Shown piece by piece: positions 36,922-53,147 of a DNA stretch of 53,147 nt. The notes under the pieces are model-generated. The model ran no database searches and was not told the DNA's origin. It was given only the letters and a program-made list of their open reading frames with translations. Source of the DNA: Desulfuromonadaceae bacterium (GTDB taxonomy: Bacteria; Desulfobacterota; Desulfuromonadia; Geobacterales; Pseudopelobacteraceae); NCBI GenBank assembly GCA_028683435.1, contig JAQUIG010000014.1, forward strand, positions 1 to 53,147, given 5' to 3'. Each line of letters starts with the position of its first letter. The stretch's first letter is position 1. Position numbers and translations under genes: made by a program.

Positions 36922-36945
36922 TAGGCGTTTTGAAACTTTGAAATA

Positions 36946-36983
36946 ACAAAGAGGTACCGGTATGATCGCCTGTACCTCTTTGT
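36946..36983. terminator. Probable bidirectional terminator between the chemoreceptor gene and rnj
   Basis: CAAAGAGGTAC (36947-36957) and GTACCTCTTTG (36972-36982) pair perfectly. It lies between two convergent genes. The T-rich tail is better on the minus strand (TTTGTTATTTC) than on the plus strand. Confidence 0.7.
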
Positions 36984-37005
36984 GTGAAGAGTATTGAAAA
37001 TCTGT

Positions 37006-38679: not shown

Positions 38680-38681
38680 AG

Positions 38682-39083
38682 CTATCTCTCTCTTTGCAGC
38701 GGTATCAGTGCTGCTATCTTACTGTCACATTTTTCGATCCAGATCGTGCCGGGAGTAACGAGCCAGTGATCGGCGTAGAACGAACTCCGCAGGGAACGAT
38801 ACGCAATCAGGGCGCGATTGATATCTCCCTGACGTTCGTTGCTTTCGCCGAGCTGCCATAACCTTTCGGCCGCTTTTCCGATTGTCGGGTGATAGGGGAT
38901 AAACATATGCAGGGCCGATTCGTATCCGGCAACAGCGCCGGTAAAATCTCCCCTGCGGAGAGCCGCTTCCCCCTGGCTGAATTGACTGTTCATCCGCCAC
39001 CAGGTGCTCGCAAAAAGCATCAGCAGACTGATCAGGATGATAACGATACCGTTGGCTATGGCGCTTTTTGCCTGTTCGTTCAT
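38682..39083 (-). CDS. Membrane-anchored small TPR-like protein
   Basis: A 133-residue protein of unknown function. A single N-terminal membrane helix (about 10-30) precedes two degenerate helix pairs reading like tetratricopeptide repeats (GEAALRRGDFTGAVAGYESAL, and LGESNERQGDINRALIAYRSL written as adjacent units). Most of the chain would face the periplasm or the cytoplasm; topology is not certain. Its ATG overlaps the stop of the upstream 61-residue protein (ATGA) and it ends 2 bases before rnj, so it is in a tight operon. Confidence 0.75.
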   Translation of the reverse strand: MNEQAKSAIANGIVIILISLLMLFASTWWRMNSQFSQGEAALRRGDFTGAVAGYESALHMFIPYHPTIGKAAERLWQLGESNERQGDINRALIAYRSLRSSFYADHWLVTPGTIWIEKCDSKIAALIPLQRER

Positions 39084-39265
39084 TTAAAAAAACCGGGGAC
39101 AAAGGCCAAAAGGAGACCCAGTGCAAAAATGATCACTCCGCAGAGCACCGCGGCTGCAGCAGCGATATCAAACGGGCTCTTCAGGCGGTGCGCAGCCGGC
39201 AAACCCCAGGCCATCCCTGCCAGACCCGCGACAATAAGCGCTATGTACCGGTAGCCGATGTTCAT
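39080..39265 (-). CDS. Small two-helix membrane protein
   Basis: A 61-residue protein that is almost entirely two hydrophobic helices (IALIVAGLAGMAWGLPAA and IAAAAAVLCGVIIFALGLLL) joined by a short basic loop. GGAG lies six bases before ATG 39265. It starts immediately after the plsC stop (TAGATG) and overlaps the TPR-like gene by four bases. I do not recognise a family. The tight coupling makes it a real gene and hints at a membrane-lipid or RNase J localisation link. Confidence 0.72.
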   Translation of the reverse strand: MNIGYRYIALIVAGLAGMAWGLPAAHRLKSPFDIAAAAAVLCGVIIFALGLLLAFVPGFFK

Positions 39266-39970
39266 CTAACGCTCCAGCCCGGATTCAATCTCTCCCCGCA
39301 CGGCTTCCATCATCCAGGTTTCGGCCTCGCTGCGCCGGAGTTCAGGCGGAGCGACAAGCGGAGGATGCAAGGTGATGCGGATATTGCCGCTATACAGCCT
39401 GATCTCCCCTGCCGGATTGATGCCGCCGCTGCCGTTGATCGTGACCGGAACCACCGGCACAGCCGCCTTGCGGGCTAGGATAAAGCCGCCCCGTTTGAAG
39501 GGGAGCAGGTTGCCGTCAGTCGAGCGGGTTCCTTCGGGGAACAGGACGACACTTTTGCCTTGATGAATCGTCGCTGCAGCCTCATCCACACTCTGCAATG
39601 CCTTGCGTCCATCACTGCGATCAAGCGGGATATAACCGCCGCGCCGCATGGAGGGGCCAAAAAACGGAATTTCAAAGAGTTCTTTTTTTGCGATCCAATG
39701 GATCTGGCGCGGCATGGCGGCCAGCAGGGCCAAAATATCAAAATTACTCTGGTGATTACTCATGAAAATAACCGGGCCGTCAGGAAGGTGCTCCGTCCCG
39801 GCAAGCGTCAGGGTAACACCATTCAGCGCCAGTCCCAGTCGTGCCCAGAGTCTGGCGTGCCAGGCGTAGGCCCGGCCGCTTGAATCAAACAACGTCGAGA
39901 TAATGGCGCTGACTGAAAAAAGAAATGTCAGCGGAATAAACGCTGCCAGATAGAGATACGCGCGAATCAT
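39266..39970 (-). CDS. plsC: 1-acyl-sn-glycerol-3-phosphate acyltransferase
   Basis: A 234-residue membrane-associated acyltransferase that makes phosphatidic acid. ATG 39970 is chosen because GGAG is six bases upstream; ATG 39973 is only three bases from it. An N-terminal membrane segment is followed by the HX4D motif NHQSNFD (about 73-79), KKELFEIPFFGPSMRRGGYIP block, and the substrate motif FPEGTRS. These are the four PlsC blocks in order. It is the first gene of the operon ending in rnj, behind a candidate promoter. Confidence 0.93.
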   Translation of the reverse strand: MIRAYLYLAAFIPLTFLFSVSAIISTLFDSSGRAYAWHARLWARLGLALNGVTLTLAGTEHLPDGPVIFMSNHQSNFDILALLAAMPRQIHWIAKKELFEIPFFGPSMRRGGYIPLDRSDGRKALQSVDEAAATIHQGKSVVLFPEGTRSTDGNLLPFKRGGFILARKAAVPVVPVTINGSGGINPAGEIRLYSGNIRITLHPPLVAPPELRRSEAETWMMEAVRGEIESGLER

Positions 39971-39996
39971 CATGAACTCCAAATATAAACTTATAT

Positions 39997-40025
39997 AAAT
40001 TACAGTGTTATCGCAGGTGAGTCAA
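39997..40025 (-). promoter_or_regulatory. Candidate sigma-70 promoter for plsC-rnj operon
   Basis: Minus strand: TTGACT (40020-40025), 17 bases, TAATTT (39997-40002). The spacing is optimal and the -10 weak but with key T, A and T positions. It lies about 27 bases before the plsC start. Confidence 0.45.
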
Positions 40026-40065
40026 ACAAATTCAGCGATGATGGCGGCAGGTAGAGACTAACGTA

Positions 40066-40386
40066 CTAATCCAGTGTTGTGCGCAGACGTTTTTTTTCAG
40101 AAGTGATTTTTTTACCGGCCAGGCGGTTTTCTTTGGCCCGCCTCGGCACACGGGTGGAGATCCGCTTCTTGACCTTCCGCTCGCGCCGTTCCAGTGCGGC
40201 ACGCAGGCGCTCCATGGCAACCTCGCGGTTTTGAAATTGACTGCGGTTTTCCGAGGCCTGGGCAACGATCCCGGTCGGGAGATGACGGATGCGTACGGCC
40301 GAATCAGTCGTGTTGCGATGTTGCCCGCCCGGGCCGGAGCCGCGGTAGAACTCGATCTTTATGTCTGATTCGCGTATTTCTATCAA
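40066..40386 (-). CDS. Stand-alone class I release-factor domain (GGQ) protein
   Basis: A 106-residue protein carrying only the catalytic domain of class I release factors: [20 protein letters not shown] near residues 17-36 and [14 protein letters not shown], then a strongly basic tail. The start is a TTG at 40386, with GGAGGAGG eight bases upstream and no better ATG. The GGQ loop is nearer to RF1/RF2 ([13 protein letters not shown]) than to ArfB (GGQHVNKVSSAV). Such proteins release peptides from stalled ribosomes or free peptidyl-tRNA, and the basic tail resembles those of ArfB/C12orf65 that probe the mRNA channel. It follows a 56-residue gene and an rRNA methyltransferase in one operon, a translation context. 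Confidence 0.88.
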
Positions 40387-40406
40387 TGCTTCGGCCTCCT
40401 CCAGTT

Positions 40407-40577
40407 TTAAAAACTGTCTCTAAACTTTACCAGCAGGTAGAAACAGCCGACTCCAGCAGCCGCCATCAGCAGGTCGCGTCCCCACGGGATCGGTTTTTCC
40501 AGCATCGAATAAAGGAGCGGATCGAGCAGAGCCGTCGTTAATAGGCCGACGCCCCCCCAGGATAGCAGTTTCTTCAT
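40407..40577 (-). CDS. 56-residue small membrane protein
   Basis: A small gene on the minus strand. ATG 40577 overlaps the stop of the rRNA methyltransferase gene by four bases (ATGA), and TAA is at 40407, 20 bases before the release-factor start. The protein begins [18 protein letters not shown] and has two hydrophobic stretches (about 8-24 and 36-50) separated by a short Pro/Lys/Trp/Arg segment, ending KFRDSF. I do not recognise a family. The start overlap and the position between two well-supported genes make it likely to be real. Confidence 0.7.
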
Positions 40578-41809
40578 CGGTTACACCTTTCCGCTACACA
40601 GCCGGACTTCACACAGATCGCATATTTGAGATAGCGCCCTTCCGGGAAGGTGACCGGATAGGGGAAATCTTCCGGCTGCCCGAGCAGGGAGATCACCCGC
40701 AGGTCACACGCTGCCTGGAGTGCTCCCCGGCGCAACTCTTTGAGGTATTCGGCGACATCAACCTTCTGGTGATTGGACGATGCGATCAACAGCCCGTTGT
40801 CGGTCAGCAGCGGGAGGGCCGCAGCTACCAGGTCGGAGGTGCCGCCGCGGGTCGTAAAGCGGCTCTTGGCGGTGGTGGAAAAAGAGGGGGGGTCCATCAG
40901 GATAATATCGTAGCGTTTCCCCCCCTGCGCCAGTTTCCCCAATACCGCCAGGCAGTCGCCGACGATGAATTCATGCTGTTTGGGGTTGATCCGGTTGGCG
41001 GAGAAGTTGTCTCTGGCCCAGTCGGTGTAGCCGGCCGAGGCGTCGACACTCGTCACCTCTGCTGCGCCGGCAGCGGCTGCCGCCACCGAAAACGCGCCGG
41101 TGTAGGAGAAGAGGTTGAGCAGCCGTTTTCCTTTGACACGCCCCATCAGGTCGCGGCGGTTGCGTCGCTGATCGAGGAACAGTCCGCTGTTCAGCCCCTG
41201 TTCCAGGGTCACCAGAAAGGTGAGGCCGTTCTCCCGGGCTTCCAGGCGCTGCGGCGCTGCTTTTCCGGCCAGAAGCCGCCCGTAATTCTTGCTGTCACTG
41301 ACCGCTTCCAGCTCGCGGGTCTTCTGCGGACGGCTCTTCTCGTAAATCCCGAGCGGCGACAGCAGCTCCTGCAAAATCTGGGTTACCAGCTTCAGGTGCG
41401 GCCGCCAGGCGGCGCAGTATATCTGCAGCATCAGGTAGTCGGCATAGCGATCCACCGTCAGCCCCGGCAGGCCGTCCCCTTCGGCGTTCACGAGGCGATA
41501 GGCGGTGGAATCGTTCAGATCGGCATGGAGGCTCCGCAGCTCTATCGCTCGCTTCAGACGCCCGGTCAGCCAGGAGCGATCAAGCTGTATCCGCCTCCGC
41601 TCCAGTACCCGCGCCACGATCCGTTCCCCCGGATCAAGCAGGGCCGTGGCCAGGAAGCGCCCCTCGGAGTCGCACAGCTCTACGCTCTGCCCGGAGGTGC
41701 CGGCCGGCCATTTCCGGGTATATGCATCAGCGACAACCCAGGGGTGCCCCAACTCCAGCATTCTGACCGTTTCGGGGCCAACGATTCTTGCCGTATCCTT
41801 TGAACTCAC
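40574..41809 (-). CDS. Class I SAM-dependent rRNA methyltransferase, RlmI-like
   Basis: A 411-residue enzyme if GTG 41809 is used, which has GGAG six bases upstream; GTG 41821 in the same frame would add four residues. An N-terminal PUA-like domain (about 8-80) is followed by EGDGLPGLTVDRY, an RNA-binding middle region, and a Rossmann methyltransferase: LLNLFSYTGAFSVAAAAAGA (SAM motif I), TSVDAS, IVGDCL, and DPPSFS (catalytic motif). This is the RlmI/RlmO-type family that makes 5-methylcytosine in 23S rRNA. It follows mog by 15 bases and is coupled to the small membrane protein. Confidence 0.88.
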   Translation of the reverse strand: MSSKDTARIVGPETVRMLELGHPWVVADAYTRKWPAGTSGQSVELCDSEGRFLATALLDPGERIVARVLERRRIQLDRSWLTGRLKRAIELRSLHADLNDSTAYRLVNAEGDGLPGLTVDRYADYLMLQIYCAAWRPHLKLVTQILQELLSPLGIYEKSRPQKTRELEAVSDSKNYGRLLAGKAAPQRLEARENGLTFLVTLEQGLNSGLFLDQRRNRRDLMGRVKGKRLLNLFSYTGAFSVAAAAAGAAEVTSVDASAGYTDWARDNFSANRINPKQHEFIVGDCLAVLGKLAQGGKRYDIILMDPPSFSTTAKSRFTTRGGTSDLVAAALPLLTDNGLLIASSNHQKVDVAEYLKELRRGALQAACDLRVISLLGQPEDFPYPVTFPEGRYLKYAICVKSGCVAERCNR

Positions 41810-41824
41810 ATGCTTCTCCACTCT

Positions 41825-42322
41825 TTATTTTGCAAACCTGTTGCCGCAATCTTCCTGTCCGCCGCGGATCTTTTCAACGGCGTGACCGATTGTCGGCCAG
41901 ACCGCCTCCAGGTTTTCCAGGGCACCACGGGGGCTTCCGGGGAGATTGATGATCAGCGTCTGCTTGCGAATGCCGGCGGTAGCCCGGGACAGGGAAGCCA
42001 TTGGGGTCTTCTCCAGGCTTCGGAGGCGCATCAGTTCGCCGAGACCGGGGATGGCTCGCTCGACGACCTGCAACGTCGCCTCGGGAGTCACGTCGCGGGG
42101 GGAAACGCCGGTGCCGCCGGTCGTCAGGATCAGGTCGGCCGCATCGGTATCGGCCCATTCCGTCAGCACCGCCACAATCTGCTCGAATTCATCGGCAATG
42201 ATGCGGGACACAACCGTCTGTACCCCGCGCTCTGCAAGCCACGCCGCCAGCGCCGGGCCACTTTTATCAACCCGCTCGCCACGCGAACCCTTGTCACTCA
42301 ACGTCAGAATAGCGGCTTTCAT
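41825..42322 (-). CDS. mog: Molybdopterin adenylyltransferase (MogA/MoaB family)
   Basis: A 165-residue enzyme. ATG 42322 is chosen because GGAGGAGAG precedes it; the longer frame to 42364 has no site. It starts AAILTLSDKGSRGER, has the nucleotide-binding TTGGTGVSPRDVTPEA (about 72-87), and ends with NLPGSPRGALENLEAVWP. This is the MoaB/MogA fold that adenylates molybdopterin for molybdenum insertion. Anaerobic respirers use molybdoenzymes widely. It heads an operon with the rRNA methyltransferase, a small membrane protein and the release-factor domain; the functional link is unclear. Confidence 0.93.
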   Translation of the reverse strand: MKAAILTLSDKGSRGERVDKSGPALAAWLAERGVQTVVSRIIADEFEQIVAVLTEWADTDAADLILTTGGTGVSPRDVTPEATLQVVERAIPGLGELMRLRSLEKTPMASLSRATAGIRKQTLIINLPGSPRGALENLEAVWPTIGHAVEKIRGGQEDCGNRFAK

Positions 42323-42452
42323 CTGCTCTCCTCCCGTAAAATCCCTTTTCTCTCGGAGTGTCACGGATTAATTCCAGTACAATGCGATCACCGGGTGCAT
42401 GAGCATAACAAAACTTATCATGGATGTCCCCGGAATTATCTAATTTTCTCGC

Positions 42453-42482
42453 AAAAAAGCCCCGCCGGTTTTCCGGCGGGGT
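42453..42482 (-). terminator. Rho-independent terminator after the multiheme cytochrome
   Basis: CCCCGCCGG (42460-42468) and CCGGCGGGG (42473-42481) pair perfectly around TTTT. The A-run at 42453-42458 becomes a T-run on the minus strand, directly after the cytochrome gene stop. Confidence 0.92.
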
Positions 42483-42506
42483 TGATGGAGTCATCGGAGA
42501 GGCCAA

Positions 42507-44642
42507 TTACTTTTTAATGCCCACCGTAAGACCACGCTCGGAAGCGCGGGTGAAGCTGTGGCACATGGAACAGTCGATCTTCTCACTGGTCACGTGCTTG
42601 CTGTGCAGAGAAGTAAAGCTTGGCATATCCTCGTTGCCGTGACACTGGGTGCATACGGTTGATTGCGCCGCCTTTAACGAATAACCCATACTCTTCAGGT
42701 TCATCTGGGGTGCCGGTGCAGTCGTGGTCCCGTGGCAGGAAGTGCACTGCAGCGCAGCTGTTTTTGGTGAGACGGTATGGTTCAGCATCTGGTACTCGTC
42801 GGCCTTCACCATAGTGTACGCATCTCCTGCATTCAGGCCCATGTTGGTCAGGCCGGACTGTACTGCTCCAACAAGGTCACCATTTTTGAAGTACAAAGAG
42901 GTATTCAGAGCAATAAGCTTGCCGGATGCTGCATGTCTCGGCTGCAGGGATGTTTTGTACTTGAACGGCGTTAATTTACTGTTAGCGCCGTTGATGTCGC
43001 CGTTTGGCCGGCTGATCTTGTAGGCGCCTGTTGCAGGGTCAATTACGGCGACGTCGTTAAGATCGGACACCCAGGAAGTGCCATCGAAGAAGGCGTAGAG
43101 CGGTTTCAGATTATTTGCTTTAATTACGGTAGGTTCCCAGCGGTTGTTGGCAACAGACCACTCAGGAGTGACCCAGGTACGGGTTGTTTCGGTTGCTTGG
43201 TCGCCAAAGCCGGTGAGTTGATCAACCACCGCATCGGCAGCCATCTTGCCGTACGTCGGGATGTGACAGGTTTGGCAGGCGACTCGTTTCATATGTGAGT
43301 TAATAGCAGCGGTTGCATGGCCGGATGTAAGTGCCGCTTTGCTGCTGTGGCAGGCAGATGTTGAACAGTTGACACCAACGGTGCTATCGGTGGGGCGCAG
43401 ATCTGAACCGCGGCCGGCCACGTGGTGGTTGGTGAAGGTGTGGCACTGCTGGCAGGACAAGTTTGCTCCGGTCGTAGCCATATGGACATCATAGTTGCGA
43501 TCATTGGTCGTTCCGTTGATCAGAGCCAGGTCGCCGCGCTTAAGTGCATCGCCGCCGCCACCCTTGGCGTGGCACTGTAGGCAGCTGGACTTGACCGGTT
43601 TGTGGACGGTCTGTACGGCGGCATCCATGGTGATGGTCATCTTGGTCATGTCAGGTTCGAATAGGCCGGTGCTGGAGTTGCGGGCCCTTTTATACTCTTT
43701 CTGGTGACAGATCAAGCAGTCGATATTCCTGGTGGCGTCGGCAACGGTACCAGGTTTTGCGCCTGCACCAATATGGCAGCCACCGCAACCGTTCCAGTTA
43801 CCCAAGGTGTTGATGCAGTAGGCGTTAATGGCGGTGTTTAGTTTGCCGCCGGTGACGCCCGGTTTGTTGCTGATCTGGCTGTTTGGCCCTTCCCATTTGT
43901 AGTGCGTGCTGCCGGCCATTCCTGCGGCCTGGGTGGCGTGGCACTGGAGGCACATGGTGCCGTCGGTATAGGTCAGGTTGGCATGATTGCCGGCTGGGGG
44001 CTGCGTCGTTGTACCGGCGGTGAAGGTGGCTGTCTTCACCGCTTCGTTGTTACCGGCGGCGTCGCGGGCGAAGAACTTCAATGTTGTGGTAGCGGTCAGA
44101 GAGATCGGGGCGCTGTAGCGGGTTGAAGAAGTTGTCGGAGTAGTGCCGTTGAGAGTGTAGTAAATGGTGGCGCTCTCGTTGACAGTCAGGGTGACGCTGA
44201 CCGGCATTGAATGTGTTCCGGAAACAGGGGAAACAGCCGTTACCGGTGGGGTGGCGTCGGCAGTGGTAGTCGTGACAACCTGTGGATAGCTGTATGCCTT
44301 GGTCTCATTGTCCTTATACTTAAAGCTGCCGCGGACCTCGTACTTACCCGTTTTGGCGGAACGGGAGAGCGTGTAGGCGTAGCTGTAAACGCCGTTGCCG
44401 GCGTTCTTCATGCTGGTCTGTACCAATTCACTGCCGGAAGAGTTTTTGATGCGGACTTCACGGGTTCGGGGCGAAGTAATCGGTTTGCCATACTTGTTCT
44501 TGTACAGGGCGGTGATCTTAATTACTTGCCCTGGGGAATAGCTGCTCTTGTCGGTGCTGACGGTCAGTGTGTCGGCAGAGGCAATCGCCGTGATGGCGAA
44601 GACACATAGAAACAAAAACAGTGCAGGCAGTTTCGTCATCAT
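42507..44642 (-). CDS. Secreted multiheme c-type cytochrome with Ig-like N-terminus
   Basis: A 711-residue exported cytochrome. AAGGAG precedes ATG 44642. A signal peptide ends near AIASADT. Residues about 25-110 look like an Ig/MG2-type beta domain (STDKSSYSPGQVIKITALY), and about 130-205 resemble a chitobiase-C-type beta domain (YYTLNGTTPTTSSTRYSAPI). Nine CXXCH haem sites follow (CLQCH, CGGCH, CLICH, CLQCH, CQQCH, CQTCH, CTSCH, CTQCH, CSMCH) plus one CX4CH (CSTSACH), so ten haems are predicted. The role is probably electron transfer to an extracellular acceptor; its own partner proteins are not in the window. Expression is likely set by the riboswitch upstream. Confidence 0.92.
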   Translation of the reverse strand: MMTKLPALFLFLCVFAITAIASADTLTVSTDKSSYSPGQVIKITALYKNKYGKPITSPRTREVRIKNSSGSELVQTSMKNAGNGVYSYAYTLSRSAKTGKYEVRGSFKYKDNETKAYSYPQVVTTTTADATPPVTAVSPVSGTHSMPVSVTLTVNESATIYYTLNGTTPTTSSTRYSAPISLTATTTLKFFARDAAGNNEAVKTATFTAGTTTQPPAGNHANLTYTDGTMCLQCHATQAAGMAGSTHYKWEGPNSQISNKPGVTGGKLNTAINAYCINTLGNWNGCGGCHIGAGAKPGTVADATRNIDCLICHQKEYKRARNSSTGLFEPDMTKMTITMDAAVQTVHKPVKSSCLQCHAKGGGGDALKRGDLALINGTTNDRNYDVHMATTGANLSCQQCHTFTNHHVAGRGSDLRPTDSTVGVNCSTSACHSSKAALTSGHATAAINSHMKRVACQTCHIPTYGKMAADAVVDQLTGFGDQATETTRTWVTPEWSVANNRWEPTVIKANNLKPLYAFFDGTSWVSDLNDVAVIDPATGAYKISRPNGDINGANSKLTPFKYKTSLQPRHAASGKLIALNTSLYFKNGDLVGAVQSGLTNMGLNAGDAYTMVKADEYQMLNHTVSPKTAALQCTSCHGTTTAPAPQMNLKSMGYSLKAAQSTVCTQCHGNEDMPSFTSLHSKHVTSEKIDCSMCHSFTRASERGLTVGIKK

Positions 44643-44705
44643 TTTCTCCTTGCGGGGCTACCGCGGTAGTAAACGAAAGCCGGTTGGCTCTTTGGATGGC
44701 ATTTG

Positions 44706-44734
44706 ACTACACAGAGAAGGAGGTTCGTTGTCAA
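44706..44734 (-). promoter_or_regulatory. Possible internal promoter downstream of the riboswitch
   Basis: Minus strand: TTGACA (44729-44734), 17 bases, TGTAGT (44706-44711). The -35 is perfect and the -10 weak. A transcript from here would carry the cytochrome gene but not the riboswitch. A 12-base palindrome, CTACCGCGGTAG (44658-44669), lies further downstream in the same leader. Confidence 0.3.
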
Positions 44735-44815
44735 TACCTGGCGATGCTACAGAGTTTAGTGGTTTGGTCAGATCGTCGGCACCCTCCTTTCATGAGTCGT
44801 ATCTGCTACAAACGC

Positions 44816-44921
44816 AAAACAGCCGGACGCCCAATATCGGTGTGATATTTCGGCGACCCGGCTGTCTCAATGAGACCCTGTAGGCTTTCCGTCCTACCTT
44901 CGCAGGCAGTTTAGTATTATC
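44816..44921 (-). promoter_or_regulatory. GEMM-I riboswitch (cGAMP-I type) with terminator
   Basis: Minus strand. The aptamer runs from about 44921 to 44844. Recognisable parts: ACTAAAC, a hairpin with GCGA tetraloop (GCCT-GCGA-AGGT), then ACGGAAAGCC with the adenine that intercalates between the ligand bases, a second arm GGGTCTC/GAGAC, and CAGCCGGGTCGCCGAA, the tetraloop-receptor strand. Aligned to the V. cholerae Vc2 GEMM aptamer, the residue at position 20 (two before TAAAC) is A, not G; in Geobacter GEMM-Ib RNAs that A goes with 3',3'-cGAMP binding. CAGCCGG (minus, 44864-44858) also pairs with CCGGCTG (44826-44820) to make a long hairpin followed by TTTT (44819-44816), so ligand binding should block the terminator and turn expression on. 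Confidence 0.88.
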
Positions 44922-44961
44922 GTTATCATACGCAGTTTGTTTGCGTACAATTATGGTTAGC

Positions 44962-44989
44962 AATATAAATTAACAACAGATTTAGTCAA
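44962..44989 (-). promoter_or_regulatory. Sigma-70 promoter for the riboswitch-cytochrome transcript
   Basis: Minus strand: TTGACT (44984-44989), 16 bases, TATATT (44962-44967). Start of transcription expected near 44955, giving a short unpaired lead-in before the aptamer. The whole gap from 44643 to 45039 is thus explained by promoter, riboswitch and leader. Confidence 0.7.
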
Positions 44990-45039
44990 GTAAAAAGAGA
45001 GGGGAGACTTAGAGTGGGTTTGGTGTGAAAGATTAATAG

Positions 45040-46698
45040 TCACATGGTACTAGCGGCATTGTATGTGTCAATTCCTCCGGAGAGATTGAAGCAGTTGGTA
45101 AAGCCGTGTGCTGTGAGGATACGGCTGGCTATGTATCCGCGCACGCCAACCTTGCAGAAAATCAGAATAGGTCTGTCCTTCGGCAGCTTTGAAAGCTTGC
45201 GGCGCAGCATGTCTACCGGGATATTGACCGCCCCTGCGATCGTGCCCGCCAGGAACTCACCGAGTGAGCGCACGTCAAGGAGGTATGCGCCTTCAGCAAC
45301 GGCAGGCGCAACAGCATCGTAGCTTATGCTTTGCACGAGTCCATCAAGAATGTTCTGCGCGATAAATCCGATCATATTGACCGGATCCTTCGCGGATGAG
45401 TAAGGTGGCGCGTAGGCGTGCTCTATTTCAGTCAGGTCATCTACCGTCATGCCCCCCTTTATCGCCGTCGCAATCACGTCGATCCGCTTGTCGACCCCTT
45501 CGTAGCCGACGACTTGCGCGCCGAGTACGCGCCTGGTTTCGGGGCAAAAGGTGAGCTTGAATGAGAGCATGGTTGCGCCGGGGTAATACTCTGCATGGTG
45601 CCCGGAATGGTTTATGACGCTGCGATACGGGATGCTTTCGGCTCTGCAGAACTTTTCAGTTGCGCCGGTTATGCCGACGGCAAGATCAAAGACCTTCGCA
45701 ATGGACGTTCCCATGGTGCCGGTATAGCAGCGCGTCATTATCCCGTGGATCGTGTCTGCGGCGATTCGTCCCTGCTTGTTGGCAGGCCCGGCCAGCGGTA
45801 CGGCACCCCTCTTGCCGCTAAAAGGGTTTATGACTTCGATGGCATCACCGGCAGCATAGATGTCGGGCTGGTTTGTCCGGAGATGCTGGTCTACGATGAT
45901 GTGCCCGCGCGCGCCAAGCTCAATGCCGGAATCGGCAAGAAATCCGGTATTCGGCGCGACACCGATGGAGAGAAGAACCAGCTCCGCCTCAAGGCGTGCC
46001 CCGCTCCCGAGTCGCGCCAGAACACCCCCTCCAGGGAGCGGCTCAAAAACGGTCACCGTTTCGTTTAAAAACAGTTCGATGCCGTTCTTACGCAGTTCAC
46101 CATGCACAATGGCAGCCATTTCCGGGTCGATGGCATTCATCACCTGTGGCGCCATTTCAACAACCGTCACCTCTATCCCGCGCAGGCGGATGTTTTCAGC
46201 CATCTCCAGCCCGATAAAACCGCCACCCACGACCAGGGCTTTCCTGACGCTGCCATTGTCAACTATCGCCTTTATTGCGTCTGTGTCAGGTATGGTCCAG
46301 AGGGTTTTTATGGCCGGATGCCGGCTACCGGGGATGGCAGGTTTGACCGGTGACCCGCCGGGAGTCAGCAGCAGCGAGTCGTAGCTCTCTTCGTACTGCT
46401 CCCCGGTGCGAAGGTTGTTCACCGTGACCGTTTTCCTCTCCGGATGTACGGCAACGGCTTCGTTATGTATTCTTACATCGGCATTAAAGCGCCGCTTGAA
46501 TGATTGGGGTGTCTGCAGCAGGAGCTCGTCCCGGTCAGTTATCTCGTTTCCGATATAATAGGGAAGTCCGCAGTTGGCATAAGAAACATACTCGCCACGT
46601 TCAAGAACGATAATTTCGGTTGTTTCATCAAGACGTCTCAGGCGTGCAGCCGCAGACATTCCTGCGGCAACTCCGCCAATAATAAGATATTTTGCCAT
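45040..46698 (-). CDS. CoA-disulfide reductase-type flavoprotein with rhodanese domain
   Basis: A 552-residue FAD enzyme. GGAGG precedes ATG 46698. N-terminal FAD-binding GGVAAGMSAAARLRRLD; redox Cys43 in SYANCGLPYYIG, the single active cysteine of CoA-disulfide and CoA-persulfide reductases; NAD(P)H-binding VVGGGFIGLEMAENIRLRG (about 155-173); dimerisation domain (about 330-445) with MLSFKLTF; and a C-terminal rhodanese domain (about 460-552) with Cys515 in IFCKVGVRG. The fused form (CoADR-RHD, Npsr-like) reduces polysulfides or persulfides via CoA. It is the last gene of the four-gene operon, 63 bases after the radical SAM fusion, and could accept sulfur from the periplasmic rhodanese pathway. 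Confidence 0.9.
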   Translation of the reverse strand: MAKYLIIGGVAAGMSAAARLRRLDETTEIIVLERGEYVSYANCGLPYYIGNEITDRDELLLQTPQSFKRRFNADVRIHNEAVAVHPERKTVTVNNLRTGEQYEESYDSLLLTPGGSPVKPAIPGSRHPAIKTLWTIPDTDAIKAIVDNGSVRKALVVGGGFIGLEMAENIRLRGIEVTVVEMAPQVMNAIDPEMAAIVHGELRKNGIELFLNETVTVFEPLPGGGVLARLGSGARLEAELVLLSIGVAPNTGFLADSGIELGARGHIIVDQHLRTNQPDIYAAGDAIEVINPFSGKRGAVPLAGPANKQGRIAADTIHGIMTRCYTGTMGTSIAKVFDLAVGITGATEKFCRAESIPYRSVINHSGHHAEYYPGATMLSFKLTFCPETRRVLGAQVVGYEGVDKRIDVIATAIKGGMTVDDLTEIEHAYAPPYSSAKDPVNMIGFIAQNILDGLVQSISYDAVAPAVAEGAYLLDVRSLGEFLAGTIAGAVNIPVDMLRRKLSKLPKDRPILIFCKVGVRGYIASRILTAHGFTNCFNLSGGIDTYNAASTM

Positions 46699-46761
46699 TA
46701 TTCCTCCGGAAAAGTTTTAATCATGCCAGGGCATATCTGCTTCGTCAGCTGCCGGTGAGTG

Positions 46762-49700
46762 CTACGGCCACAACGGGCATTCCACCCCAAGACATTCCTT
46801 GTTGCGTGCCATCTGGCTGCAGGCAAACGGTTCAACCCCGGACAAATCCAGCGCAAACAGATCGCGTGCAAGCCGTATCCCGCTCCTCAGGGCTATCCAG
46901 CAATCCCGCTGGCAGCAGCGGGCGGCTTTATGCCCGGCAATCTCCGCCAACACTTGTTGGACAACGTTCTGCACGGTCTGCCGGGCTGCCGCCGTAAGCG
47001 GCGTCGCCTCCAGCAGTACGCTGAAGGTTATGCCAACTCCTGTCGCTGCGCCACAAATACCCATGAAACCGCAACTGCCGCCGCTGACCTCACCGCCACG
47101 GTGAATGGCGGCGTGCAGCATCTTCCCGGTAACCGGTTGCCCGGCGTTACGCAGGCAGGCCAGCAGTACCCCCGGCACCAAGGCATGGTATTGTGGACCA
47201 TGCAGCGGAATGTAAGGGTGCCTCCGGATCTCCTGAAAAAGGGTGATCGGGTCAGTTTCAGCCGTTGCTCCGCAGAGATGTTCGATCAGCTCCAGGGTAT
47301 CGCCGGTGTGGCAGCTGTCGCAGACAAAGTGCCCCTGCAGGCAGCAGGCATTGGCCGGCAGGATTTTGCCGCAGAAGTGGCAGGCGGTTTCCTGCTCGGT
47401 AGCGTGGTACACCAACGCCGCGCCGCAGACGAGACAGCCTTCATCATGGAGTGTTTTCGGCGATGAAAGCGGCACTCCTTGGGGCTCGGGGGGGATGCCA
47501 CAGTTGGCGCTGGCAGCAATGGCTACGTTCGTGACAAAGCCTTGGCTGTCAAGCTGCCAGAGCTGTTCGGCCAACAGGTCGGCATCCCTTTGCGTAACCA
47601 TGACGCTTTGCCCGGGGCGCAGCCACTGTCCGCCGGGGGTTAGCAGCCCTTTGGCCGGGCCGGGGTAAAAAACCCTGATCTTCTCAGGGAGGAGGAGTTC
47701 CGGTTTGTTGACGGCAAAGGTCAGGGAGAAGAAGGGATGGCCGTTCACTATCCTGTAAGGGAGCCGTTTCAGTATCCTGAAACCGGTAAAGCCGCTCTCC
47801 TCCAGCATCCCCAACAGATCTTTCTGGGTCATGGCGCCGCTGATGCACTCACCTCGCAGCGTTTCGTCATTCAGGATGGCTGCATCCGGCTCGGTTTCGC
47901 AGACGACATCAGCCGCTACCAGACGCCCGCCGGGGGCCAATACCCGCAGGATCTCGGCGAAGGTGAGGCGTTTGTCGCTTGACAGGTTCAGTACGCAGTT
48001 GGAAACTATCAGGTCTGCATCGTTATCGGGCAGCGGCAGCTCTTCCAGATAACCTTTCTGGAAGCAAAGGTTGTCGTATCCCAATGACTGGCTGACCTCC
48101 CGCGCCCCCTTGCGGGCCAGATCCAGCATCGGCTCCAGCATGTCTATGCCGGTGACGATCCCCTGAGCCCCAACCATCCGGGCCGCGATAAAACATTCCA
48201 CGCCGCTGCCGCACCCAAGGTCTACCACCCGTTCACCCGGCATTATCCCCGCATCCATCACCGGGCTGCCGCAGCCATAACCACGGAAACGGTACGCTGC
48301 CGGAATATGTTCGATCAGGTCACCATCATAGTGAACAGGGTTCAGGATTTCGCTCCGTTTGTCTCCGGCGGCAGTGGCATAATAGGCACCTACTTCATCC
48401 CGGCTGTCGGTTGATCCGTCCAGCGACAGCAGACAGTTGGTGTGGCAGATGGATACCGGGCCGTGGCTGCCACAGCTGACCAGCAGCTCACCCATCTTTA
48501 ACCGTACGGCAGGCCCGGACGGTTCAGGAAGACGGGCAGCCGCCTGTGCAATCAGCTGTAGCGCCAGCTGCTCAATCAACGGCTGATAGGGGTCGTGTCC
48601 GATGAAGGTGGCGCCGTGATGGTAGCTGTGATCAAGGTCGCCTCCTCCAAGCAGATAGCGCCAGGGATCGGCAAGGGTTGCAGTGCTGGTCTGGCGGATG
48701 AGGGACAATACCGGGCTCTCCTGCCACCCGGTGACCAGCCCGCACTCAAGCGGTGTGGCCAGCCGGTCAATCCCGACCGTGGCGGCAGAAGGATAGAGAC
48801 GGTTGTCCGGGCCGATGGCGGCCGCCTCCCACCCTGCGCTGGAGCCGTCATGCACCGTGCCGGGGGAAGAAAAAATCTGCCCTTTCAAACTCTCTACATT
48901 ATCGATGGTAATTCCCCGCACTTCGGCCCTCTGCATGGCCGCCAGCATCGGTTCAAGCAGTTGCAGCGGGGCTATGTGCTGGTCAGAGGTACCCCTGCCA
49001 CTGATGAAGTGCCACATCAGGTGGACCGCAGCGGCCCCCTGATCAGCGGCGTAATCCACCAGCCAGGTCAGATCCTCAGCATTCTCGCGGGTGACACAGC
49101 AGCTTAACGTAAACCGCCAGTTATTTTTTCTCAGCCATATCAGTTGCTGTTCCAATCTCTTAAAACTGCCAGTTCCTCGCACCTGGTCGTGATGTTCCTG
49201 CGTGCCATCAAGACTGATCTGCAGATGGACGCGCTTACGGGGCCATTCCGGTTGGAGGCGCGTTTCCAGCAAAAGTCCGTTTGTCAGGATAGCGATACGG
49301 CTCTCCGCTATGGCCAGGATATGGTCGATCAGCGGGATGAAGTCGGGATGAACCAGCGGCTCGCCACCTGTGAGGGCAAAGGTGCGGCACCCTTGTGCCG
49401 CCGCGTCATCGAGATGCTGCACGAGTTGTGTAAAAGATAATTCACGTCCGGCATCCGGGCCGGAACTGAACAGGCAATGGGAGCAGGCCAGATTACAGCG
49501 GTCGGTGATATGCAGCCAAAGCTCTCTCAGGGGTGGTGTGCCGGGAAGCAGGGCGTCACGCCCCGGATAGCTCTCTTCAGGTGGATCAGGGAGGCGTTGC
49601 AGGAAGCTGGCAATTTCAAAGGACGTATCGTCTCTGCCGGCTGTCAGCTTCTGCAACAGCCGGTCTCCGGCGGCGGTAGGTACAAACCAGGAAGGACGAT

Positions 49701-49767
49701 CAGGGCAGAGCCATACAGCGGTGTTAGCAGCGGACAGGCGGATCCATCGGGTTGGGTCAAAGCTCAT
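46762..49767 (-). CDS. Radical SAM - methyltransferase - DUF5714 fusion protein
   Basis: A 1001-residue cytosolic protein, read from ATG 49767 (MSFDPTRW); the longer open frame overlaps the upstream gene. Residues 10-60 look PqqD-like. Radical SAM core at about 80-300, with C91-x3-C95-x2-C98 in DRCNLACSHC and GGEP in TGGEPLVHP. A Cys-rich linker (CGSHGPVSICHTNC, about 432-445). SAM methyltransferase at about 490-690: VVDLGCGSGVECF, GIDMLEPML, SNCVLNL, with Cys499 (YGCGSP) and Cys641 (GECISG), matching two catalytic cysteines of arsenite methyltransferase ArsM; the third ArsM cysteine is not evident. DUF5714 at about 775-1001, with CLVCG, CHFCG, CDSCH, GGSCGFMGICGA and a CX8CX4C tail. The substrate is unknown. 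Operon with Fe-S, rhodanese and CoADR-RHD genes. Confidence 0.9.
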   Translation of the reverse strand: MSFDPTRWIRLSAANTAVWLCPDRPSWFVPTAAGDRLLQKLTAGRDDTSFEIASFLQRLPDPPEESYPGRDALLPGTPPLRELWLHITDRCNLACSHCLFSSGPDAGRELSFTQLVQHLDDAAAQGCRTFALTGGEPLVHPDFIPLIDHILAIAESRIAILTNGLLLETRLQPEWPRKRVHLQISLDGTQEHHDQVRGTGSFKRLEQQLIWLRKNNWRFTLSCCVTRENAEDLTWLVDYAADQGAAAVHLMWHFISGRGTSDQHIAPLQLLEPMLAAMQRAEVRGITIDNVESLKGQIFSSPGTVHDGSSAGWEAAAIGPDNRLYPSAATVGIDRLATPLECGLVTGWQESPVLSLIRQTSTATLADPWRYLLGGGDLDHSYHHGATFIGHDPYQPLIEQLALQLIAQAAARLPEPSGPAVRLKMGELLVSCGSHGPVSICHTNCLLSLDGSTDSRDEVGAYYATAAGDKRSEILNPVHYDGDLIEHIPAAYRFRGYGCGSPVMDAGIMPGERVVDLGCGSGVECFIAARMVGAQGIVTGIDMLEPMLDLARKGAREVSQSLGYDNLCFQKGYLEELPLPDNDADLIVSNCVLNLSSDKRLTFAEILRVLAPGGRLVAADVVCETEPDAAILNDETLRGECISGAMTQKDLLGMLEESGFTGFRILKRLPYRIVNGHPFFSLTFAVNKPELLLPEKIRVFYPGPAKGLLTPGGQWLRPGQSVMVTQRDADLLAEQLWQLDSQGFVTNVAIAASANCGIPPEPQGVPLSSPKTLHDEGCLVCGAALVYHATEQETACHFCGKILPANACCLQGHFVCDSCHTGDTLELIEHLCGATAETDPITLFQEIRRHPYIPLHGPQYHALVPGVLLACLRNAGQPVTGKMLHAAIHRGGEVSGGSCGFMGICGAATGVGITFSVLLEATPLTAAARQTVQNVVQQVLAEIAGHKAARCCQRDCWIALRSGIRLARDLFALDLSGVEPFACSQMARNKECLGVECPLWP

Positions 49768-49787
49768 GGGGGTAATATACCTGAAAT

Positions 49788-51491
49788 TCAGCGTGCTGTC
49801 GAGAGGGTGATGTCGCCGTACCAGGCGGTTGCCTCGGCGCCGGTGTTGTCGGTGTCGGTCATAATCGCCACGCCACCCGCCATTGGCGGCTCTTCTCCAA
49901 AGACGCGGCGGTAGTCGGCCAGGATGTCCCGTTCTTCGCTGACCCACTGGCCGACTTTCGATGATCCGGATTCTACCGCCAGCATTTTTGCGTTTCCGGT
50001 GTAGGCGTTGGCGATGAATTCACCTTTGGGCAGCTTGTTGGCCCAGATGTAGTTGAGGGCGCGCATCTGCCAGAAGAACCGGCCGGGGAAAATCACGTAG
50101 AGTCGCGCCGCGTAGTCATCCCCCTGTTGTGTGCTTTCATTGCCGTTCGCTACGGTGCCTGCAATCTTCCAGCTCCATTTCAGATAACGGTATACCGCCG
50201 GACTGAATTTAATTTTTTTTGTCAGGCCGGATGCCGCCCCCTTGGCATGGGATTTCAGCACGGCGTGGCCATTTTCATGGATAATCCGGTAGTCGGTAGA
50301 GCCTTTAAATCTCTTGATTTCCCATCCCCTTAACCCATCTGCCGTAAAATTGCTTACCGGCAGATCCTGCGCATTTGCTCCCTGCACCATCGCTGCCAGC
50401 AGGAAAATGGTGATCATCAGTGGGCGAAACCGAAGGAGCAGGCGGTTCATCCAGCGTCGAGGAGATGAGGGAGGCGTGGGTGGGACCGGCATGTTTCCCT
50501 GGCTGCCTATCAGATCAACAAGGTGTAACGCAGCTGTATGGGTGCCTAGGGTGTCAATACAGGCGGCACAGGAACTGATCGCCATGCGGCCGTCCGCTTC
50601 GGCTGCAATCTTCACGGCCTCACGCGTTACGCTGCCCGGCATGCATCCCTCGACCATACCTCCTTGACCACAGCAGCGGGTGGTGCGGCCATGCTCCGGC
50701 AACTCCTCGACCCGGTAACCGCATGAATGCACCATCTGCCGGACAGCCTGCTGCTGGGCATCATCAAAGCGGGCAGGGCAGGGATCGTGTACGGTGACGG
50801 TCGGCGCATCGGGGCTGGGAACAACGACCGGTTCCGCTTCGGCCAATATTTCATAGACACTGGTTGTCTCAAACTCCTCGCCGTACTCCCGCAGGATCTT
50901 GCTGCAGCCGGGGCAGGAGGTGAGGATGCGGGTGATTCCCCTTGCTTTCAGCCGGTCAGAGAGCTTATTGAAGATAGCTTCAAACCGCTCTGTCAGGCCA
51001 AGGTCGTGGGAAATCTTGCCGCAGCAGTCCAGAACCAGTCCGATGTTCGGGTCGATTGTGCGCAGCTTCTGCAGCAGGATAATCACGCCGTCCGGTCTGG
51101 TGCCGGGAAAGGAACAGCCGGGGAAGAAAACGGTAGTGCAGCCTTCAGGGATAGCGTCGCGACGGAACGGGGGGGAACCGCCAAGTTTTTCGTAGGTGAG
51201 CCAGGGGGAGTATGGCTTCAGGTCTATAACATGGCGTTTGGCCGCTTCCTGCCGCATGGCGCGGAACATGTCCGATGGTGACAGGAGTTCCGGGCAGACC
51301 GCATCACAGAGACCGCAGAGGGAACAGCGATACGCGACAAGCAGATTGTTATCTGTGTCACCCCGCCGTGCAACCGCCGCCGGCGTTCCTTCCACCTGCA
51401 AAAAAGAGCAGGGGCGTACGCATTCGCCGCACGATGTACACCGGGCGGCCATGTTGGGCATGATCGCCCGGATGGTGCTGGTTTCACTCAT
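49788..51491 (-). CDS. Fe-S/CCG oxidoreductase fused to a DUF3047 domain
   Basis: A 567-residue fusion. N-terminal part: two [4Fe-4S] motifs, CTSCGECVRPC (C18, 21, 24, 28) and CSLCGLCDAVCP (C56, 59, 62, 66), then two CCG domains (C126, CC156-157, C193/C196; C238, CC273-274, C308/C311), as in GlpC/HdrD-type electron-transfer subunits. A Pro-rich linker and a hydrophobic helix (about 353-374, ending QGANAQ) follow. The rest (about 375-567) is a DUF3047 domain (FTADGLRGWEIKRFKG, RYLKWSWK, GDDYAARLYVIFP). The hydrophobic helix looks like a complete signal peptide beginning at Met348, so the protein joins a cytosolic redox unit to a periplasmic domain. A fused ORF or an artefactual join are both possible. 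It lies 10 bases after the rhodanese gene. Confidence 0.88.
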   Translation of the reverse strand: MSETSTIRAIMPNMAARCTSCGECVRPCSFLQVEGTPAAVARRGDTDNNLLVAYRCSLCGLCDAVCPELLSPSDMFRAMRQEAAKRHVIDLKPYSPWLTYEKLGGSPPFRRDAIPEGCTTVFFPGCSFPGTRPDGVIILLQKLRTIDPNIGLVLDCCGKISHDLGLTERFEAIFNKLSDRLKARGITRILTSCPGCSKILREYGEEFETTSVYEILAEAEPVVVPSPDAPTVTVHDPCPARFDDAQQQAVRQMVHSCGYRVEELPEHGRTTRCCGQGGMVEGCMPGSVTREAVKIAAEADGRMAISSCAACIDTLGTHTAALHLVDLIGSQGNMPVPPTPPSSPRRWMNRLLLRFRPLMITIFLLAAMVQGANAQDLPVSNFTADGLRGWEIKRFKGSTDYRIIHENGHAVLKSHAKGAASGLTKKIKFSPAVYRYLKWSWKIAGTVANGNESTQQGDDYAARLYVIFPGRFFWQMRALNYIWANKLPKGEFIANAYTGNAKMLAVESGSSKVGQWVSEERDILADYRRVFGEEPPMAGGVAIMTDTDNTGAEATAWYGDITLSTAR

Positions 51492-51501
51492 AGAGTTTCG
51501 G

Positions 51502-51918
51502 CTATCGCCCTGTTACGAACAGTTCCTTGTAGGGCCACCCGGCGATGCCATCTTCCAGAATCTGCATGCGCTCTTCAGATACCCCTTTTGATTCAAGGTA
51601 ATTGTAGCTGTTTTTAGCGCCGGTTTTACCGCGTGGGCAGACTACCACCACCGGGGCCTTGGATGCCTTGATGGCGGTCAGCGCACTGTCAAGGCGGGCT
51701 TTCTCTTCATCCTTTGCGGCAGGGAAGGCGTTGGTCTCAATGGAGCCGGGGAGGTGCTGTTTTTCAAAATCGGCAGCAGGCTGGATATCGACCAGAATGA
51801 CGTCGCTCTTCTTGTCCAGCAGTTCCTTCAGCTCCTGCGGTTCGATGTAGTTTGCCGCCAGTGCAGCGGTTGCGGACAGCAGGGTCAGGGCCAGGGTCAT
51901 GGTTATTCTTTTCAACAT
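51502..51918 (-). CDS. Periplasmic single-domain rhodanese
   Basis: A 138-residue exported protein. ATG 51918 has AAGGAG nine bases upstream; the longer frame to 51984 overlaps the promoter. A signal peptide (about 1-21, ending TAALA) is followed by one rhodanese domain with active Cys94 in VVVCPRGKTGAKNSY. The loop CPRGKTG has the six-residue shape of sulfur-transferring rhodaneses. It is the first gene of the operon and should move sulfane sulfur, for example from thiosulfate or polysulfide, in the periplasm. Confidence 0.9.
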   Translation of the reverse strand: MLKRITMTLALTLLSATAALAANYIEPQELKELLDKKSDVILVDIQPAADFEKQHLPGSIETNAFPAAKDEEKARLDSALTAIKASKAPVVVVCPRGKTGAKNSYNYLESKGVSEERMQILEDGIAGWPYKELFVTGR

Positions 51919-51955
51919 GTTGTTTCTCCTTTTATATGCAAAAAATTGAATGTAT

Positions 51956-51993
51956 TTTATAGCAATTGATTGCTTGTCTGGCAAATAGATAAT
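51956..51993. promoter_or_regulatory. Overlapping divergent promoters with palindromic operator
   Basis: Minus promoter: TTGCCA (51979-51984), 17 bases, TATAAA (51956-51961), driving the rhodanese operon. Plus promoter: TTGATT (51966-51971), 16 bases, GATAAT (51988-51993), driving lysR. Between the minus hexamers lies AGCAATTGATTGCT (51961-51974), arms AGCAAT and ATTGCT around TG, a plausible LysR-type site. A regulator bound there would cover both promoters. Confidence 0.6.
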
Positions 51994-52040
51994 CTGGTAG
52001 AAATGCGTTGCATGCTATTGAAAAATACGATGGAGGCGCC

Positions 52041-52970
52041 ATGACGTTGAAACAGTTGCAGGTTTTTATGGCGATTGCCGATACCGGCAGTTTCTCAAAA
52101 GGTGGCGAGGCCGTCAGCCTCGCCCAGTCCACGGCAAGTCAGCATATTCATGCCCTTGAGGATGAGTTTGGGGCACGACTGTTTGACCGCTCTGCCAGTC
52201 GTGTCACCCTGACTGAAGCCGGTCGGTTGTTTTACGAACATGCTGCCCGGATCTGCGGCCAGTGTGGAGAGGCTATCACTGCGATCAAGCGCTTTCAGGG
52301 GCTTGAGCAGGCGACTCTGCGGGTTGGGGCAAGCACCATTCCGGCTGCCTGTCTGATTCCTGATCTGCTCGGCAGTTTCAGTGCCGCCCGTCCCGGGGTG
52401 CGGCTGGAGGTGCTGCAGGGGGATACCCGTGAGGTGATTCGCCTGCTGCAGGATGAAGCCGTTGAACTTGCCGTGGTGGGGGGGCGGTTTGATGCCGATA
52501 CGATCTGTTACGAAGAGGTGGGCGCCGAGCGGATCGTGCTGGTTGCACAGCCTGGAGTGTTCTCTGAAGCGGTGGTGGCCATTCAGCAATTGCAGGAAAT
52601 GCCGTTGTTGATGAGAGAACCGGGATCGGGTACCCGGCTGGCGGTGGATGGCGCATTACAAAAGGGTGGTCTTGACCTGCGCTGCCTGCGGGTGGTCGCC
52701 CAGCTTGGCAGCAGCGAGGCGCTCCGGCGCGCCGTGTTGAGTGGGGCAGGCTGCGCCTTTCTGTCGTCCATGGCGGTCGGAAGAGAATTGGCAGACGGCA
52801 CGCTTAAGACAGTGGATATTGCCGGTATAGAAATAAGCCGCAGCTTTTATCTCGCCTGGCGTCGGGGGAGGAGTTTCTCGCCGGCAGCAGAGGTGTTCAT
52901 GGAGGCGGTGCGGCTGCATCAAGGGCTCGTCGGACGGTCTGCGCCAATTCAGGCCGATCAAGCGGCTTGA
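52041..52970 (+). CDS. LysR-family transcriptional regulator
   Basis: A 309-residue regulator. ATG 52041 follows GGAGG by four bases; an earlier in-frame ATG at 52008 lies too near the promoter and lacks a site. Residues 1-60 form the LysR winged helix (LKQLQVFMAIADTGSFSKGGEAV, QSTASQHIHALEDEFGARLFDR). The effector domain (about 90-300) opens with LRVGASTIPAACLIPDLLGSF and has GDTREVIRLL and FYLAWR; this looks like the sulfur/selenium-type LysR branch, but the ligand is not readable. It diverges from the four-gene operon, sharing the promoter region, and is its likely regulator. Its 3' end overlaps the convergent response-regulator gene by 74 bases. Confidence 0.92.
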   Translation: MTLKQLQVFMAIADTGSFSKGGEAVSLAQSTASQHIHALEDEFGARLFDRSASRVTLTEAGRLFYEHAARICGQCGEAITAIKRFQGLEQATLRVGASTIPAACLIPDLLGSFSAARPGVRLEVLQGDTREVIRLLQDEAVELAVVGGRFDADTICYEEVGAERIVLVAQPGVFSEAVVAIQQLQEMPLLMREPGSGTRLAVDGALQKGGLDLRCLRVVAQLGSSEALRRAVLSGAGCAFLSSMAVGRELADGTLKTVDIAGIEISRSFYLAWRRGRSFSPAAEVFMEAVRLHQGLVGRSAPIQADQAA

Positions 52971-53147
52971 TGGCCACTTCAGTGATAAATTCTGCAATCT
53001 GTCCATTCTCATCAGTACCGTAGCTGGAGGTGGGGTCGAAGCCGGTACAGAGGATAATCGGCAGGTCAGGCCGTAAAGCCGCAATTTCTTCTGCCAGTTG
53101 AAGGCCGTTCAGGTTTGGCATGGCCTGATCAGTAATAACAAGGTCAA
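52897..53147 (-). CDS. Receiver domain, C-terminal part of a longer protein (truncated by window end)
   Basis: The frame is open to the window edge and stops at 52897. It shows the second half of a receiver domain: phospho-Asp in LVITDQAMPNLNGLQLAEE, CTGFDP, conserved Lys in VAIKPLDRPEL, then a short Ala/Pro tail. The sequence style matches receivers at the C-terminus of hybrid histidine kinases, but the rest lies beyond 53147. The last 74 bases overlap the end of lysR on the other strand. Confidence 0.8.
   Translation of the reverse strand, partial: DLVITDQAMPNLNGLQLAEEIAALRPDLPIILCTGFDPTSSYGTDENGQIAEFITEVAIKPLDRPELAQTVRRALDAAAPPP

Follow-up and report, generated by a model that had tools for sequence, protein, structure and literature searches.

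The window, by which we mean the whole stretch of 53,147 nucleotides analyzed here, contains on its minus strand a gene whose product joins, according to Pfam, a radical S-adenosylmethionine (SAM) domain, an ArsM-like methyltransferase and a DUF5714 domain in a single reading frame. This gene and its three-part chain are real and conserved. We consider it fairly probable (about 0.6) that this one protein takes the place of ArsM plus ArsS where an arsenosugar-type pathway begins; this is the simplest reading, because the known chemistry of ArsS and ArsM fits it, and the chain is probably an enzyme of the arsenosugar route. Its coordinates, strand and length had been given correctly in an earlier note made from the DNA letters alone. 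A GTG at 49947, farther upstream, would extend the frame; the ATG at 49767 is favored because the alignments of relatives begin at residue 1 of the ATG-start version. The gene and the parts of the chain are as follows.

46762..49767, minus strand: gene for the radical SAM, ArsM-like and DUF5714 chain (ATG at 49767, stop codon ending at 46762, 1001 residues)
48874..49533, minus strand: radical SAM core (residues 79-298; Pfam Radical_SAM at 87-238; structural match to anSME and SkfB)
49474..49497, minus strand: CX3CX2C motif CNLACSHC (residues 91-98; invariant in 45/45 chains)
48523..48873, minus strand: SPASM/twitch-like remnant with no conserved cysteine (residues 299-415; 4k38 aligned over model residues 79-409)
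48346..48522, minus strand: linker with invariant C432 and C445 (residues 416-474; predicted local distance difference test score, pLDDT, of the model below 50)
47698..48345, minus strand: ArsM-like methyltransferase (residues 475-690; Cys499, Cys591, Cys641)
47287..47535, minus strand: CxxC-rich stretch (residues 745-827; C756, C778, C781, C796, C799, C809, C816 and C819 invariant)
46768..47286, minus strand: DUF5714 (residues 828-1000; Pfam PF18978, E 9.1e-57)

A search for related loci yielded 21 named loci, 16 of which match the chain over at least 990 residues, and the other five (L011, L012, L017, L020 and L021) over fewer than 990. We aligned 47 chains, namely that of the window and 46 others, leaving out L017, L073 and the window duplicate L104; their identity to the window chain ranges from 39 to 83%. 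In the 45 to 47 chains covering them, 24 cysteines are invariant: 91, 95 and 98; 432 and 445; 499, 525, 591 and 641; and, in the tail, the eight of the CxxC-rich stretch together with 899, 905, 951, 952, 983, 992 and 997. Because the chain recurs in named genomes and these 24 cysteines are invariant, the three-part join is not an assembly artefact. The earlier note would have been refuted by finding the enzymatic halves as separate genes in all relatives, which is not what we found: among 75 DUF5714 open reading frames (ORFs; loci L001-L021 and L052-L104), the methyltransferase is present in 49 and all three parts share one frame in 47. L017 and L073 contain the methyltransferase and not the radical SAM part, and both are cut by contig ends.

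At the locus level, the three parts follow one another in 49 loci, and 24 further loci lack this arrangement. The 49 include L059, whose fusion is broken by 100 Ns, and L074 (L074:9000-12500, genome G218), a split gene or frameshift, where one frame encodes the radical SAM/methyltransferase part and a second, overlapping frame the DUF5714 part, with no Ns present. Of the 24 other loci, a contig end truncates four (L017, L020, L064 and L073); the remaining 20 were treated as stand-alone, with L094 and L095 among them likewise truncated by a contig end, on their 5' side. One genome of the window's genus, G404, has two DUF5714 copies (C13 and C38), both in fusion-sized frames (1006 and 1034 amino acids).

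The methyltransferase part matches Pfam Methyltransf_31 at residues 510-659 (E 1.3e-29), and in structure comparisons ArsM is the nearest methyltransferase fold. Cys499, Cys591 and Cys641, invariant in 47/47 chains, align with C72, C174 and C224 of CmArsM (4fr0), which we take to be its As(III)-binding cysteines; the earlier note had picked out the first and the last of these and overlooked Cys591. Compared with ArsM/AS3MT, the chain is fused to two further parts, scores 197.2 and 198.9 bits with the ArsM model NF008823, under its cut-off of 263, and has no cysteine at the place aligned with the fourth ArsM cysteine, the first in order, presumably C44.

The radical SAM part scores 79.3 bits with PF04055 (cut-off 29.5; E 4.8e-22), and its CX3CX2C motif, which had been recognized before, is invariant in all chains covering the site. 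By fold, the core and the following domain are like those of the SPASM/twitch enzymes SkfB, anSME and SuiB, and a SPASM-like stretch was located near residues 309-330, its likeness being judged by eye and by fold. Unlike these enzymes, the chain lacks the cysteines of the auxiliary cluster: no conserved cysteine was found between residues 225 and 431 of the 47-chain alignment, which agrees with what the earlier note had remarked. Its further suggestion that a cysteine-rich linker provides the extra cluster found no support, because the linker, though present, contains only its two invariant cysteines, in a poorly modeled region; the cysteine-packed stretch, C756-C819, sits between the methyltransferase and DUF5714. 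Profile scores with the NirJ/AhbD and mycofactocin models are weak, the listed NCBIfam scores being far under their cut-offs.

That the closest solved radical SAM folds include the peptide or protein modifiers SkfB, anSME and SuiB, and that invariant cysteines crowd the tail, would fit a radical SAM part that acts as a maturase, modifying cysteines in a partner protein or in the DUF5714 tail of the chain itself, with the methyltransferase acting on arsenic separately. This explanation is unlikely, since no SPASM cluster cysteines are left and since it does not account for the mutual exclusion of the fusion and ArsS described below.

A replacement for ArsM plus ArsS is what the distribution across genomes points to. 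The window's genus is represented by 39 genomes, of which 10 contain DUF5714, 28 contain ArsS (TIGR04167) over cut-off, one contains both (G399) and two contain neither (G426 and G427), an exclusion with a Fisher p of 2.4e-6. The DUF5714 frames measure 1005-1085 amino acids in seven of the 10 genomes and are shorter in three (781, 449 and 134). Of 395 genomes of the phylum, 53 contain DUF5714, 119 contain an above-cut-off ArsS and 167 an above-cut-off TIGR04283. ArsS is present in 1/31 fusion genomes (G352) versus 118/364 others, where the 31 include G261 and G041 with shorter frames and G352 assigned by frame length alone; when G156 (N gap), G209 (contig cut) and G218 (two frames) are added, the fraction becomes 1/34. 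The fusion and ArsS thus exclude each other, and the exclusion within one genus is the stricter result. TIGR04283 over cut-off accompanies both, in 26/31 fusion genomes and 98/119 ArsS genomes versus 44/246 genomes with neither. ArsS itself belongs to a different radical SAM family, mostly in frames of about 320-430 amino acids. Many of its copies (in G025 and others) contain one in-frame TGA, and these are probably selenoproteins.

The gene company also links the fusion to ArsS. Using hidden Markov models (HMMs) built from the gene clusters of fusion loci, we detected TIGR04282 or TIGR04283, which NCBI names arsenosugar biosynthesis glycosyltransferases, near the fusion in 14/49 fusion loci versus 0/20 stand-alone DUF5714 loci; the four contig-cut loci were left uncounted, and of the 20, L094 and L095 are cut as well. 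In the phylum sample alone the figures are 9/30 versus 0/20 (p 0.007), or 0/18 (p 0.018), and the neighbor-gene test alone is therefore modest. The genes of L008 and L016 are arranged as LysR, rhodanese, dicluster protein, DUF3047, VTT, fusion, TIGR04283 and TIGR04282, with other genes interspersed in L016; the two L008 glycosyltransferases pass their NCBIfam cut-offs (232.7 versus 182 and 183.2 versus 134). Six gene kinds, namely VTT, a MerA-like flavoprotein, DUF3047, a fatty-acid hydroxylase and both glycosyltransferases, occur in ArsS loci too, and at least one of them is present in 13 of the 30 highest-scoring ArsS loci, whose flanks are at most 1.5 kilobases; the larger ArsS loci L146-L163, partly picked because a single contig carries both ArsS and TIGR04283, serve as illustration only. 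ArsS and the fusion therefore have accessory gene kinds in common and are complementary in presence. The earlier idea that a single metalloid substrate undergoes both radical chemistry and methylation is supported by this company, which points to arsenic and an arsenosugar route.

The fatty-acid hydroxylase gene was seen in fusion loci L004, L013, L019, L071 and L084 and in ArsS loci L156, L162 and L163, and DUF3047 in 10/49 fusion loci and again in ArsS gene sets; both may belong to an arsenosugar or arsenolipid route. The genes around the fusion gene in the window are the following.

45040..46698, minus strand: downstream CoA-disulfide-reductase-like flavoprotein with a rhodanese tail (TIGR03385, 485 bits, under the cut-off of 579; Pfam Pyr_redox_2 and Rhodanese)
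49788..51491, minus strand: upstream ORF in which a 4Fe-4S dicluster/CCG part is joined to DUF3047 (Pfam)
51502..51984, minus strand: rhodanese-domain protein (Pfam)
52008..52970, plus strand: divergent LysR regulator, NF040786, selenium-metabolism-associated (255.7 bits, cut-off 250)

Judged by eye, the DUF3047 part of the 49788-51491 ORF opens with a signal-peptide-like stretch. The dicluster and DUF3047 parts are separate matches, in this order, in L008, L009 and L016, and the close relative L019 has an ORF of 582 amino acids in the dicluster cluster. A multiheme cytochrome is encoded at 42507-44642, also on the minus strand; MG2 and chitobiase-like domains precede its part of the octaheme tetrathionate-reductase family, which scores 264.9 bits against a cut-off of 375.

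Several observations weigh against the chain replacing ArsM plus ArsS. The window gene scores 51.9 bits with TIGR04167 and does not reach the cut-off of 300, so that in sequence its radical SAM part is not an ArsS. The word "arsenosugar" for TIGR04282 and TIGR04283 is NCBI's label. TIGR04282 alone is no marker of fusion genomes, because it is present in 36/39 genomes of the genus, including all 10 with DUF5714, and TIGR04283 is not specific, because it also occurs in genomes with neither the fusion nor ArsS. Over cut-off, TIGR04283 was not found in five of the 31 fusion genomes (G162, G228, G316, G334 and G371), and in G228 and G371 not even at E 1e-45. Near the fusion, the two glycosyltransferases were not seen in 35/49 loci, many of which are short stretches, and the window's own locus (L104) is one of the 35. 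The window genome has TIGR04282 on C7 and TIGR04283 on C81, neither adjoining the fusion gene, and the latter (188-189 bits versus 182), located beside an aconitase gene, may be a paralogue. The window flavoprotein is of a different subfamily from most flavoproteins of the shared gene set, because it scores 451 bits on the cluster flavoprotein HMM, whereas 12 of the 16 fusion loci with a flavoprotein reach about 700. Finally, G352 and G399 carry DUF5714 and ArsS together, and the Fisher tests ignore phylogeny. As a separate observation, the TIGR04282 gene of the window genome lies directly before a futalosine hydrolase gene (L145:8514-9913; G000 C7).

DUF5714 is matched over its whole profile with 191.8 bits (Pfam cut-off 26.2), and structure searches matched no Protein Data Bank fold to the tail. 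Aligned by hhalign with C_GCAxxG_C_C (PF09719), the DUF5714 core gives E 2e-4 and a probability of 46 over 52 columns, against E 0.25-0.86 for ten control alignments, which hints that the core may be a remote relative of these redox proteins. Residues 773-999, hence the tail only, match positions 36-265 of the 468 of the metal-binding double selenoprotein MbdU (NF045648) with 132 bits, not reaching the cut-off of 600. No in-frame TGA was found among the DUF5714 matches of the 395 phylum genomes. The part of PMC13188914 available to us lists MbdU, TrsS and fusions of arsenite methyltransferase with AhpD or DUF2284 among selenoprotein families, and a radical SAM fusion was not found among the families in that part.

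Genome G208 has a stand-alone DUF5714 gene immediately after the gene for a TrsS that scores 549 bits (cut-off 490); nearby are genes for a DVU_1553 ligase (457, cut-off 300), a dicluster protein (631, cut-off 530) and a DVU_1556-like methyltransferase (152.4, just under the cut-off of 155). The same TrsS/DUF5714 pair was assigned in G252 by clustering only, its genes not being profile-scanned. DUF5714 thus accompanies two different radical SAM/methyltransferase pairs. The TrsS/DVU_1556 system differs from the chain in consisting of separate genes, and the G208 TrsS scores next with tetraether lipid synthase, not with the radical SAM part described here. This second system that uses DUF5714, a stand-alone gene beside TrsS with DVU_1553 and DVU_1556-like genes near, is recorded at L067:8177-10295 and L066.

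The partial match to MbdU, the selA gene of the window genome and, as a further point against arsenic, the selenium-metabolism-associated label of the LysR regulator would agree with a substrate that is selenium or another metalloid, the chain making a methylated, sugar-linked selenium compound. We regard this as improbable: the three ArsM cysteines and the ArsM-like fold argue for arsenic, and so does the exchange with ArsS, whose adenosylation of arsenic is reported in work cited in the part of PMC12159101 available.

For an enzyme that replaces ArsM plus ArsS, the observed architecture, conserved residues, gene company and exclusion suggest a substrate, two reactions in order and a role for the tail. 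By homology with ArsM, As(III) would be bound by Cys499, Cys591 and Cys641 and methylated with SAM. The radical SAM domain would then cleave a second SAM and give the methylated As(III) another C-As bond, most likely by transfer of 5'-deoxyadenosyl as in ArsS, a proposal drawn from the gene exchange with ArsS and not from sequence likeness. The cysteine-rich tail probably handles the arsenical; our guess is that the ribbon and DUF5714 would hold, reduce or pass it between the two sites. The TIGR04283 and TIGR04282 proteins would, going by their NCBI label and their proximity in some fusion loci, glycosylate the product. The accessible part of PMC12159101 says that C-As bonds are formed by radical SAM enzymes and cites Cheng 2021 for adenosylation in arsenosugar synthesis and Yao 2024 for the transfer of 3-amino-3-carboxypropyl in arsinothricin synthesis. 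In Synechocystis, according to the accessible part of PMC8552651, ArsS and ArsM act together in the opening steps of the arsenosugar route.

An arsinothricin-like product, in which the radical SAM part would move 3-amino-3-carboxypropyl to As(III) like ArsL and the ArsM part would then methylate once, is more doubtful still. In B. gladioli, as far as the accessible part of PMC8552651 goes, ArsL and ArsM act in that order, a radical SAM enzyme and an ArsM thus working on one arsenical, and the radical SAM part of the chain has three invariant cysteines only, as in ArsL. However, ArsL and ArsM are encoded by separate genes with other neighbors and transfer another group, and glycosyltransferases are among the genes near the fusion, whose exchange partner is ArsS. 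Least likely of all is that lineage, or the exchange of two genomic islands for one another, produced the exclusion incidentally, and that the chain is just an arsenic-methylating detoxification enzyme: the neglect of phylogeny in the Fisher tests would allow it, as would the 12 proteins of window 36000-53147, which gave only weak flavoprotein and radical SAM matches (E 1e-5) with the ArsS loci of three relatives, but the exclusion persists within one genus, accessory gene kinds are shared with ArsS loci and the radical SAM motif is invariant.

We put at even odds that the chain is the first recognized case of one polypeptide carrying out both arsenic methylation and radical C-As bond formation, a non-ArsS radical SAM family having been recruited for the task of ArsS and DUF5714 being an arsenical-handling domain shared by two radical SAM/methyltransferase systems. 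A single chain in place of ArsM plus ArsS would give DUF5714 a testable job, and the shared gene set nominates DUF3047, VTT and the fatty-acid hydroxylase as pathway members. The chain is a candidate for the start of arsenosugar synthesis in those genomes of the phylum that lack ArsS (Geobacteraceae and other Deltaproteobacteria), and this reading suggests that radical C-As bond formation may have been solved more than once in nature.
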